This document shows positions 12,697 through 16,457 of a stretch of 19,914 bases of DNA, one piece after another. The DNA comes from an uncultured Oscillospiraceae bacterium. Its GTDB lineage: Bacteria; Bacillota; Clostridia; Oscillospirales; Acutalibacteraceae. The stretch is taken from positions 1 to 19,914 of the forward strand of contig UQZS01000029.1 in NCBI GenBank assembly GCA_900545625.1. Reading direction: 5' to 3'. A program made the position numbers and the translations under genes. The stretch's first letter is position 1, and every line of letters begins with the position of its first letter. The notes under the pieces are model-generated. The model was given only the letters and a program-made list of their open reading frames with translations, was not told where the DNA came from and made no database searches.

Positions 12697-12723
12697 TGGT
12701 TAAGCTGCCGGGGATCGAACCCG
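12697..12723 (-). other. tRNA 3'-end-like fragment (T-arm, acceptor strand, ACCA)
   Basis: Read on the minus strand this gives TCGGG, the T-loop TTCGATC, CCCGG (a five-pair T-stem with one U-G), then CAGCTTA and ACCA, exactly the layout of a tRNA 3' end with an encoded CCA. No D-arm or anticodon arm can be found upstream on that strand, so it is not a complete tRNA. It coincides with the left inverted repeat of the 279-bp segment and may be an attachment-site relic or chance. Confidence 0.35.
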
Positions 12724-12979
12724 ATATGCCGAAAACGCGCTGACACGGCGGTCTTTCCCTTTTTTACCCTTGGAAGGCGGCAGCCTGCCTGCGTGCTCAA
12801 AACGAAAATCCCATCCCTGCCGCCATCGTTTTCGCGCACAGGAGTTTTCAGCGAGAGGATTTTTGTGCGGGCAAGGCACAAAAGCGCCGGAATACTTGAC
12901 GTATTTCAAGCTTTTTAACGCAGCCCGCGCGGGAAGCATCCGCTGTAAACCATATTGTGTTCGATTACCGGCAGCTTAT
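12701..12979. mobile_element. 279-bp MITE-like segment with 28-bp terminal inverted repeats
   Basis: The arms 12701-12728 (plus) and 12979-12952 (minus) both begin TAAGCTGCCGG and end ATATG, with ATCGAAC conserved between them; 24 of 28 positions match. Each outer end carries TA, compatible with a TA target duplication, though TA could equally belong to the repeat. The interior has no convincing gene, but contains an 8-bp hairpin TTTTGTGC/GCACAAAA at 12861-12883. Non-autonomous element is my best reading; a structured RNA or a pair of recombination sites is also possible. No transposase lies nearby. Confidence 0.5.
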
Positions 12980-13271: not shown

Positions 13272-13300
13272 TGCATACCAAGATACGCAAGTATACGAAA
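13272..13300 (-). promoter_or_regulatory. Possible promoter of the small minus-strand gene
   Basis: On the minus strand TTTCGT (13300-13295), 17 bp, then TATGCA (13277-13272) preceded by TGG, an extended -10. Both boxes are weak matches; position relative to the ATG at 13228 is reasonable. A GC palindrome CCGCCGCGGCGG at 13254-13265 would lie in the leader. Confidence 0.3.
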
Positions 13301-13324
13301 GAGGCGTTTCGCAACAATCGGATG

Positions 13325-13353
13325 TTGCCAATTCGGCACGAATCCTATATAAT
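13325..13353 (+). promoter_or_regulatory. Strong promoter of the helicase-nuclease gene, with overlapping inverted repeat
   Basis: TTGCCA at 13325-13330, 17 bp, and a perfect TATAAT at 13348-13353 place the start near 13360. An inverted repeat GCAACA/TGTTGC (13311-13316, 13323-13328, 6-base centre) overlaps the -35 box and could be an operator. Boxes are read directly; repressor binding is inferred. Confidence 0.8.
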
Positions 13354-13393
13354 GGTTTCATGAAAGGAAGATTTTTGAAATAGGGAATTGCAA

Positions 13394-16300
13394 ATGAAAA
13401 AGATTGCCAAGGATATTTTCAGGGCCATTCATGAGGGAAAATGGCTTGCCATTGAATATCAGAACAAAACAGGCAATACGACCAACTATTGGATCGGTAT
13501 AAAAGGGATCCATACATCCAAGCAAATGTTGATCGTTGACGGGCTGAATGTAGCTTCTGCACAGCTTACCGAACTAACGTTGTTTTATGCTTCCATACGC
13601 AGTACGGAGGTGATTCAAGGTTCCTATTGTCCGATCAACTCGAATTTGATCGCGGATATTGAAAAACACCCGTCGCGGTATACGTTTATTTTTCAAAATG
13701 TTGCAAATCTAAAACTTCTCAATTACTATGCCGAGTGCAACCGACTGGACGCAACGCCGTATCGCAAAGATTATGCGCTGGTGGATGCGCTGGATTTGGA
13801 TTTGATCGGGCAGGACACATATCATTTGAATGATCTGCAGTATGGAAAAATTGTGCAGGATTTTCACAAAACGGCGAAATATAACAATGCAAACAGCCAA
13901 AAGAGCAGCTTTGCCCTGTGCATGAATGTTTGCAGCATTCATACGAAAAAGGGACTGTATGTTTTGGCATATAAAAAGCTTCTGCTGGACGTCAAAAATA
14001 AGACGCTCAAACAGGACGAAGATATTACGGTTTGTACGGAGTTTACGGTAGACGGCTGTAAATTCAGTATCCAGTATTTTCTGGAGAATGACGAACTTGC
14101 CCTGTTGGATGATTTTGAGCAAAATGCAGAAGCAATCAAAGATGCCATTACACAGAACCATCCGGAGTGCGGCGGCGTAGATGATATGCCGTATGTCATG
14201 TCGATCCGATATGATGCTAATCTGGATTTAGAGACGGAATATGCGGCAATTTTAGAGATGTATGACAGGGATCAGGTATCCTATCCCATCAAAGCGTTTT
14301 TTGGGGATCTGACCTCCAAACCTGTTCGAAGAAAGAATTTTCCGCTGGCGCTTTATAACAATCGTGTCAATTTGGATCAGCTGTTGGCGATCCACAACGG
14401 CATGAAATACCCGGTACTGTATGTACAGGGCCCGCCGGGGAGCGGAAAAACCAATACGATCCTGAATACTGTCATAACCGCCTTTTTTAACAACAAAACT
14501 GTGTTGATCTCCTCCTACAATAACCATCCGGTTGACGAAATCTTTGAAAAACTTTCCAAACTGGAATACAGAAATTTTGTAATACCGTTTCCGGTTGTTC
14601 GGCTCGGAAATAAAGACTATGTCCGAAAGGCGATTCAACATATCCGCATTCTGTACGAACAGACAAAATCGATAACGGTATATGATGCCGCTTTAAGCAA
14701 GAAGCACAGCTTTGAAGAACAGCGCAATAAAGACTTGAACGACCTTTTACACCGCTACGAGCAAAAACTGGATTTAGAAGAACGCAAGGCTATGATTGAG
14801 GCGCTCCTTTCCTCTTCTACGAATATGCCCATGATGTATAATTTGCAAACCAGGCAGCTGCAAGAGGTGAAACAGCAGCTTGCTGCAATCGGAAATGTGC
14901 GTGACGAAGACGTTTATCCGCTGATTCAAACGGATCTGCGAGAATTTAAGATGTATCTGAATTACACCTCCGCAAAATATATCAAGCACCTTTCCGAACC
15001 AAAATACAAAGAGCTGTTGGATATTGTATACATGGAGGATGCGGACGAGCAATATACGGCGTTTACAAAATATCTTTCCAAAGATGCAAATATGCAAAAG
15101 TTTCTAAAGGTGTTTCCGGTTGTTGTAACAACAAATATCAGTGCACACAGGCTGGGCGAACCGAAACCGTATTTTGATATGGTAATTATGGATGAGGCAA
15201 GCCAATGTAACACAGCCGTGGCTTTGGTGCCGATTCTACGCGGCAATCAGCTTATGCTTGTGGGCGATCCGCAGCAGCTTCGCCCTGTGATTTTGCTGGA
15301 TGACAAAAGCAACACGGCGCTCAAAAAACGATTCCACGTTTCAGACGCGTATGACTACAGGGAAAAATCTGTGTATCAAACCTTTTTGGCGGCGGATGCC
15401 GTGAGTGACGAGATCCTTTTGAGCTATCATTACAGATGTCATCCGAAGATCATTCGGTTTAACAATCAGAAATATTACAATAAAAAGCTGCATATAAAAT
15501 CCTCTGCGGAAAACCCCACCCCGTTGGAATTTATAGAATGCGACGGCAGAAATTTTGGGGAGAAAAACACAAATGAAAGCGAAGCGCAGGCGATTTTACA
15601 ATACGTGCGGCGGCATCCCGACAAATCCATTGCGGTCATCACGCCGTTTGTCAATCAAAAAGAAAAGATACAATCCATTTTACGCGAAAACAACATAAGC
15701 AACGTGGAGTGCGGTACGGTGCATGCGTTTCAAGGCGATGAAAAGCAGGAAGTTATCTTTTCACTTGCTTTGACGGAACGAACTGGACAAAAAACGTACG
15801 ATTGGCTTAAAAACAATCGGGAACTCATTAATGTGGCGACTTCGAGGGCGCAGGAAAAACTCATTATTGCCGCAAATTCCGCACAAATCAAACGATTGCA
15901 TCGTCCAAACGACGATGATGATATTTTCGAGCTATACAATTATGTACGCTCCAACGGAAAAACCACCGTCACGGCAAAGACGGCGGCATCCCGTGCGCTG
16001 GGCATCAAACCGTACAGCACCGAAACGGAAGAAGCGTTTTTACAAAACCTCAACCACGCCATCAGCGCTATGATGATCACCCGGGCAAAATACACGGTGA
16101 AAAAGGAAGTTGCGATCTCGCATGTGTTTACCAATACCACGCAAGAGATCAACGACTTGTTCTATACAGGCAGGTTCGATTATGTCGTGTATGAGAGAAT
16201 GGGGAAGGCGAGCTATCCCGTTTTTGCCATCGAGCTGGATGGGAACGAGCATGATACAGACGAACGGGTCATGCTTCGGGATCGCAAAAAGCAACAAATC

Positions 16301-16405
16301 TGCCAAGCGCATCAGTTTCAGCTGATACGCGTGCCGAATTCATATGCAAGACGGTACAATTATGTAAAAGATATTTTATCCGAATTTTTCAGCAAACCTG
16401 TTTAA
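13394..16405 (+). CDS. WYL-like / SF1 helicase / PD-(D/E)XK nuclease fusion, candidate defence protein
   Basis: A 1003-residue protein. Residues 5-70 (KWLAIEY, then WIGIKG and LIVDGLN) look like a WYL ligand-sensing domain. A Upf1/Dna2-like SF1 helicase follows: Walker A GPPGSGKT at 346-353, a helical, partly coiled insertion at about 425-505, DEAS at 600-603, GDPQQLRP from 624, YRCHP at 680-684, GTVHAFQGDE at 774-783 and NVATSRAQE at 813-821. The C-terminus (about 885-1000) resembles Vsr/DUF2726 PD-(D/E)XK nucleases: Asp929, then IELDGNEH with Glu947 and Asp949, then RDRKKQQ and LIRVPNSY. The ATG at 13394 follows AGGG; a TTG six bases earlier is less likely. Base composition is clearly more AT-rich than the neighbours, suggesting transfer. 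A role in nucleic-acid defence is inferred; membership of a named system is not claimed. Confidence 0.85.
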   Translation: MKKIAKDIFRAIHEGKWLAIEYQNKTGNTTNYWIGIKGIHTSKQMLIVDGLNVASAQLTELTLFYASIRSTEVIQGSYCPINSNLIADIEKHPSRYTFIFQNVANLKLLNYYAECNRLDATPYRKDYALVDALDLDLIGQDTYHLNDLQYGKIVQDFHKTAKYNNANSQKSSFALCMNVCSIHTKKGLYVLAYKKLLLDVKNKTLKQDEDITVCTEFTVDGCKFSIQYFLENDELALLDDFEQNAEAIKDAITQNHPECGGVDDMPYVMSIRYDANLDLETEYAAILEMYDRDQVSYPIKAFFGDLTSKPVRRKNFPLALYNNRVNLDQLLAIHNGMKYPVLYVQGPPGSGKTNTILNTVITAFFNNKTVLISSYNNHPVDEIFEKLSKLEYRNFVIPFPVVRLGNKDYVRKAIQHIRILYEQTKSITVYDAALSKKHSFEEQRNKDLNDLLHRYEQKLDLEERKAMIEALLSSSTNMPMMYNLQTRQLQEVKQQLAAIGNVRDEDVYPLIQTDLREFKMYLNYTSAKYIKHLSEPKYKELLDIVYMEDADEQYTAFTKYLSKDANMQKFLKVFPVVVTTNISAHRLGEPKPYFDMVIMDEASQCNTAVALVPILRGNQLMLVGDPQQLRPVILLDDKSNTALKKRFHVSDAYDYREKSVYQTFLAADAVSDEILLSYHYRCHPKIIRFNNQKYYNKKLHIKSSAENPTPLEFIECDGRNFGEKNTNESEAQAILQYVRRHPDKSIAVITPFVNQKEKIQSILRENNISNVECGTVHAFQGDEKQEVIFSLALTERTGQKTYDWLKNNRELINVATSRAQEKLIIAANSAQIKRLHRPNDDDDIFELYNYVRSNGKTTVTAKTAASRALGIKPYSTETEEAFLQNLNHAISAMMITRAKYTVKKEVAISHVFTNTTQEINDLFYTGRFDYVVYERMGKASYPVFAIELDGNEHDTDERVMLRDRKKQQICQAHQFQLIRVPNSYARRYNYVKDILSEFFSKPV

Positions 16406-16443
16406 AAAGGAGATGCCTTTGGGGCATCTCCTTTTTAAACAGG
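16397..16443. terminator. Bidirectional terminator, perfect 21-bp palindrome
   Basis: The arms 16397-16417 and 16423-16443 are perfectly complementary over 21 bp around the loop TTTGG, with A5 and T5 tracts inside the arms so it can end transcription both ways. It lies between two convergent genes, and its left arm includes the last two sense codons and the TAA of the helicase-nuclease gene. Confidence 0.92.
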
Positions 16444-16457
16444 GCCGTTTGTGCATA

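Follow-up and report, generated by a model that had tools for sequence, protein, structure and literature searches.

Hhe is encoded by one large gene whose product is laid out as DUF4011, an SF1 helicase and a Vsr domain. A single gene uniting a nuclease with a helicase also makes up Nhi, whose activity is tied to phage SSB (passages of PMC12904381); the Nhi-like systems have a NERD nuclease, and Mokosh contains a PLD-like domain (both in excerpts of PMC10952713). In Hachiman, a helicase acts as the sensor that releases a nuclease (part of PMC12278908). WYL domains are found on SF1 helicases too, since the Pif1 proteins of Thermotoga elfii and others carry one at the C-terminus, where it binds ssDNA and where arginines serve in that role (sections of PMC9964779). 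Fusions of WYL with SF-I helicases have been noted in a defence context in passages of PMC4012209, and DUF2726 is presented as a restriction endonuclease in Abi-type fusions (AbiJ-NTD3–DUF2726), likewise in a defence context, in passages of PMC3710099. Both ingredients were known before in defence contexts, and what appears to be new here is a three-part combination of WYL fold, helicase and DUF2726 nuclease. The main-text passages of PMC3710099 and PMC4012209 do not describe such a protein, and we did not find it in the literature searched, which consisted largely of freely accessible main texts and abstracts.

We analysed a window of 19,914 nucleotides (the whole stretch of DNA under study) in which one gene encodes a protein of this kind. 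Judging from its sequence, it is fairly likely that the product is a horizontally acquired, stand-alone defence-type enzyme. The open reading frame, all of the named helicase motifs, the C-terminal E-x-D and the residue numbers agree with a preliminary description of this DNA. The ATG is the start of the frame, and a TTG six bases upstream is an alternative frame opener. The features of the locus are as follows.

13276..16457, no strand: acquired cassette; the stretch is missing, with about 75 bp instead, in the same-genus genomes G001 and G013
13325..13353, plus strand: sigma-70-like promoter, TTGCCA-17-TATAAT, 11/12, by consensus match only
13394..16405, plus strand: coding sequence, 1003 residues, WYL fold, Upf1-like SF1 helicase and DUF2726 PD-(D/E)XK nuclease (open reading frame, Pfam, motifs)
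13394..13636, plus strand: WYL-fold domain, a helix and five strands, residues 1-81 (AlphaFold, Foldseek, VIA, hhalign)
13832..14158, plus strand: second beta barrel between helices, possibly a Upf1-like 1B/stalk, residues 147-255 (secondary structure of the model)
14366..15295, plus strand: RecA-like domain 1 (AAA_11), residues 325-634 (Pfam 2.7e-32, above cut-off)
14429..14452, plus strand: Walker A, GPPGSGKT, residues 346-353 (motif)
15191..15202, plus strand: Walker B, DEAS, residues 600-603 (motif)
15368..15880, plus strand: RecA-like domain 2 (AAA_12), residues 659-829 (Pfam 3.8e-24, above cut-off)
16019..16375, plus strand: DUF2726 PD-(D/E)XK nuclease, residues 876-994, with E879, D929, E947 and D949 (Pfam, fold, residues)
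16397..16443, no strand: perfect 21-bp inverted repeat with a 5-nt loop, spanning the stop codon and read as a terminator hairpin

The gene had been described as AT-rich, with its own promoter and terminator, and our measurements bear this out. Its GC content is 43.8%, which is 14.5 points below the 58.3% of the remaining window, and its GC3 is 51.4% compared with 72.7% in the window ORF read as alaS. The promoter scan returned 4 sites of the sigma-70-like kind where chance predicts 7.0, and the site listed is therefore favoured by its strength and placement alone; the inverted repeat was absent from the output of the terminator scan. Between the window gene and its 97% identical relative in L002, dN/dS was 0.083 at a dS of 0.149, which indicates that the protein is under purifying selection. 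The three neighbouring genes gave dN/dS values of 0.05-0.21 and dS values of 0.22-0.25 for the same pair.

Along the protein, the motifs start at residues 16 (KWLAIEY), 46 (LIVDGLN), 346 (GPPGSGKT), 600 (DEAS), 624 (GDPQQLRP), 680 (YRCHP), 777 (HAFQGDE), 813 (NVATSRAQE) and 947 (ELDG); K352 lies in GPPGSGKT, D600 and E601 in DEAS, and E947 and D949 in ELDG, with D929 upstream. The full SF1 motif set is present together with AAA_11 and AAA_12, and sequence comparison with solved structures gives as nearest relatives SMUBP-2, a "5'-3' RNA helicase-like protein", DNA2, SEN1 and Nam7/Upf1, which identifies the window protein as a Upf1-like SF1 helicase. Residues K352, D600, E601, E879 and D929 are invariant in 175 of 175 aligned rows, comprising the window protein, 54 long proteins from homologue loci and 120 database proteins, 100 of which seem to be one lineage. 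Predicted structures covered the two ends of the protein. The second barrel lies before motif I in the model and is scarcely covered by the rows of the fold search; its position, together with passages of PMC11090510, suggests that it may correspond to the 1B/stalk of Upf1-like helicases.

The C-terminus had been proposed to be a PD-(D/E)XK nuclease, and the lack of a nuclease fold there had been named as grounds for giving up the defence reading. The fold was found: the E...D...E-x-D core is conserved in a fold that matches nucleases, and DUF2726 was matched at 1.6e-9 (38.0 bits against a curated cut-off of 24.7). A search of the C-terminal profile against PDB sequences gave nothing convincing. 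The set of E879, D929, E947 and D949 is complete in 49 of the 54 long locus proteins and altered in five, one of which lies at a contig end. The E-x-D nuclease ends are changed in L047, L037, L027 and L060, whose nucleases are possibly weakened or inactive.

These features would also suit a defence protein with an RNA target, a Upf1-like RNA helicase with either its motor or its nuclease blocking translation or phage transcripts. Upf1-clade RNA helicases are numerous among the solved relatives, and RNA is the predicted target of the CoCoNuT systems, which have a Upf1-like helicase, CnuH (passages of PMC11090510). However, where the best fold matches are nucleases, they are DNA enzymes, namely TnsA, Vsr, I-Bth0305I and restriction enzymes, and sequence does not reveal the nucleic-acid preference. 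We regard RNA targeting as rather improbable, and we prefer DNA as the target, since DNA is what the related nucleases act on.

At the N-terminus, the resemblance to WYL noted in the preliminary description is real as a fold. Residues 1-81 form a block in the AlphaFold model with a pLDDT of 76-92, and the top rows for the N-terminal model in both Foldseek and VIA are WYL proteins, in agreement with a WYL/Sm fold. When hhalign was used to compare a WYL profile with the N-terminus, the match had a P of 1.6e-5 and a probability of 79% over 71 columns; turned round, the comparison gave a P of 7.9e-5 and a probability of 61% over 35 columns, and nine other windows gave P values of at least 0.028. 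Pfam reported no WYL in the window protein at E <= 10, although its WYL HMM made sub-cut-off matches (E 0.09-0.97) to the N-termini of the orthologues from 8 of the 12 genomes with the gene. The profile of residues 1-328 found nothing convincing among PDB sequences. The WYL relation is revealed by fold and profile-profile comparison only, and the absence of a family from the fold lists does not exclude that family.

The pocket of the domain departs from that of described WYL domains. Ser67 aligns with the near-invariant WYL arginine (R72 of alignment A7, built on 24 genuine WYL domains), and position 67 is serine in 42, lysine in 9 and arginine in only 1 of the 54 long locus proteins. Three positions earlier, where by spacing the first arginine of the pair is expected, the residue is tyrosine or phenylalanine in 47/54, with the profile alignment gapped beside it; a basic residue stands at position 31 in 47/54, and the window protein has asparagine there. 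In PafBC, the WYL arginines (R211 and R214 of PafB, R201 and R204 of PafC) are essential for ssDNA binding (passages of PMC11804915), and from the motif we infer that R72 of A7 is the equivalent of PafB R214. Because the arginine is serine here and the pair is essential in PafBC, canonical WYL sensing cannot be assumed. Whereas BrxR, CapW, PafBC and DriD are WYL transcription regulators, the near-invariant arginine in the present family is mostly serine, and the domain may bind something else or merely hold the protein together.

No PADLOC or NCBIfam model matches the protein in full, which accords with the earlier statement that no named system is known to have exactly this order. PADLOC matched 11 families, the best models being MkoA (7.6e-53), MkoC (3e-49), PDC-S37 and Hhe, which match through helicase stretches, and the NCBIfam models TIGR00376, ProA, PLuB and Hhe fell far below cut-off. 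Mokosh type II (MkoC) and MkoA are the closest PADLOC models by the helicase region only, and the window protein, unlike Mokosh, has no PLD domain in Pfam at E <= 10. Hhe likewise joins a Upf1-like helicase and a Vsr-like restriction endonuclease in one protein, but its models are about 1800-1900 residues long, the window protein has no DUF4011 match, and its score against the Hhe equivalog is 77 bits compared with a cut-off of 2000. In place of the NERD nuclease of the Nhi-like systems, the window protein has a C-terminal DUF2726 and an N-terminal WYL fold; Pfam showed no NERD at E <= 10, and the 11 PADLOC families included none for Nhi. The Pif1-WYL proteins differ in helicase class, in the C-terminal position of WYL and in having the arginines, and the consulted sections of PMC9964779 name no nuclease in them. 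The best reading of the sequence is that the protein would work like Nhi, Hhe or Mokosh type II yet fits none of them. Other genomes of the order contain sister helicase-nucleases of 852-930 residues (L067:1489-4281, L064:1456-4173, L063:262-2820 and L181:1432-4164), which by reading have a common helicase and E-x-D C-terminus with other N-termini. Their best PADLOC matches are the Mokosh helicases, and they are also sparse among the relatives searched.

By analogy with Nhi and Hachiman, we infer a scheme in which the helicase would load onto phage or plasmid DNA (RNA being less likely) that is exposed as a single strand, damaged or abnormal. The motor would then translocate by ATP hydrolysis and so bring the C-terminal nuclease onto the strand, which would be cut, and the WYL barrel would serve as an accessory nucleic-acid grip or gate on the motor. 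This last step is the weakest because the usual WYL arginine is missing. We put forward only tentatively the bolder picture that Clostridia have a widespread immune system, unnamed so far and made of one gene, whose remodelled WYL domain would gate the Upf1-like helicase-nuclease, with no partner gene and with ligand residues other than the arginines of PafBC. A single polypeptide would then sense, translocate and cut. If the protein is a defence enzyme, it would represent an unlisted system that is widespread in Clostridia, where present tools would undercount defence. The WYL domain, best known in regulators so far, would be wired straight to a nuclease motor, and its non-canonical pocket could be probed with simple mutants.

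The distribution of the gene is consistent with horizontal gain, which had been proposed from composition and setting. In addition to the low GC content, four same-genus genomes (G001, G013, G041 and G054) retain the flanks but lack the gene. G020, which seems to be one assembly with L002 and G055, has a 97% identical copy at the site occupied in the window. A full-length gene was present in 1 of the 25 same-genus genomes searched, out of 39 of that genus, and in 0/150 of a family sample, 15 of which gave partial matches with at most 33% identity. In the Ruminococcus-labelled genus of G071, the gene occurred in 6/60 genomes, including the centre, which had been picked for carrying it, and as two further fragments. 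In 23 genomes selected for its presence, the full-length gene was single-copy throughout.

Homologues had been expected to lie outside core syntenic positions if the gene is cargo, and they do. Among pairs of 45 loci with less than 80% identity, at least one neighbour was common in 15/966 and at least two in 2/966, and at 90% identity or more at least two were common in 6/13; these figures come from the homologue loci alone. The tree of 63 rows holds 49 Bacillota, two Treponema, one Planctomycetota, one Bacteroidota and ten ungrouped rows, although many group labels derive from metagenome bins and could be in error. Of 120 homologues listed, 100 are 1006 residues long and 66% identical and seem to form a single abundant lineage, and many homologues are from animal-gut metagenomes by record title. 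Overall, the gene behaves as roaming, horizontally acquired cargo at changing sites. Copies that are split, truncated or interrupted (L019, L059, G263:C40 and G265:C138) are what gain and loss of the gene, or the ends of assemblies, would produce. The Ruminococcus-labelled genus also contains a bigger relative of this helicase, whose open frame spans about 1930-2000 residues, matched in 30/60 genomes against the 6/60 for the gene itself.

A single roaming gene could serve mainly in competition between plasmids or other elements, through anti-plasmid action or element maintenance, rather than in phage defence, and the helicase-nuclease system DdmDE does act on plasmids (passages of PMC12904381). 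However, we found no close copy in plasmids, where 0 of 1105 matching records reached 80% coverage, or in phages (0/10), and phage-defence types are present among the neighbours; we give this explanation a small chance. Among IMG/VR contigs, 7 pattern matches included no relative. On plain reading of the sequence, no transposon ends stood out at the cassette. Taken as a whole, the sequences point to a conserved single gene that roams and whose product, a helicase-nuclease with an atypical WYL domain, is probably an anti-phage or anti-plasmid enzyme.

To examine the association with defence genes, we took ORFs of 130-1300 residues from 61 loci and removed near-duplicates. The near set held up to three ORFs per locus within 3 kb (n=116) and the far set up to three beyond 6 kb (n=114), both limited to the 41 loci having both. 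For the control, preset regions were placed on the same contigs, 21 kb or more away from the gene, in 20 genomes; of their 140 ORFs the first 128 were used, representing 33 of the 36 regions. PADLOC results are family tallies, with individual results for 20 near proteins, and family counts are not protein counts because many models match one protein. At 1e-15, 179 families were matched in the near set, 96 in the far set and 50 in the control. Tightening the threshold to 1e-80 left 34 families in the near set and one in the control, a type IV restriction model (1.1e-181), the next-best control E-values being 9.8e-78 and 7.7e-63. Among the 20 near proteins, which were chosen by eye, 12 had no match at 1e-50 and 8 did: two type IV restriction proteins (L011), HKD+SNF2 (L016), PDC-S28 (L024), a DpdE/ZorD-like SNF2 protein (L030), PDC-M62A (L042), Cas3 at 58 bp from the gene (L043) and AbiD (L023).

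Counted as proteins, strong defence matches (1e-80) made up at least 8/116 of the near set, being six individually assigned proteins and two PDC-S01 members, against 1/128 of the control (Fisher p 0.012, or 0.046 with the six alone), in a small test whose threshold was our own choice. The link to defence genes that the preliminary description had left for an enrichment check is therefore present, in modest numbers. Some SNF2/RecQ-type matches may be generic cross-matches. Type III restriction-modification and Wadjet (JetD) were among the matches listed for the far set, as expected of islands. Many neighbours read as metabolic, and defence genes lie beside only some copies of the gene.

Several neighbours read as the repair genes RecQ, SbcC and UvrD, and SMUBP-2, DNA2 and SEN1 are among the solved relatives. 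Both would fit an accessory enzyme of DNA repair or replication, a helicase-nuclease of Dna2 type with a role in trimming flaps or stalled forks and none in defence. The nuclease of Dna2 is N-terminal and contains an Fe-S cluster, unlike the C-terminal DUF2726 nuclease found here. The sparse spread, changing sites, foreign composition and enrichment of defence models among neighbours also argue against a repair enzyme, which we consider unlikely, and for the defence-type enzyme.

Among the 61 loci there was no general operon partner; the biggest neighbour cluster, read as response regulators, occurred in 13 loci, and the second, read as ABC ATPases, in 10. A gene of 185-186 residues directly follows the helicase-nuclease gene in three Ruminococcus loci (L006:13010-13567 and its equivalents in L007 and L009) and is a possible lineage-specific partner. 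We also considered whether the window site is a defence hotspot; the site is variable, but the defence content was not borne out. In G001 and G013 the flanks enclose genes read as a sensor kinase, a response regulator, an ABC ATPase and two permeases (L134:2725-7267 and L135:2657-7186), taken together as a two-component and ABC transporter operon that is not in the window, and in G041 and G054 the space at the site is short. Just upstream of the cassette, the window carries a MITE-like dispersed repeat of about 278 bp (12701-12978) with 28-nt imperfect terminal inverted repeats, which has several matches per genome in the same-genus G001, G013, G020, G041, G054, G048 and G015.
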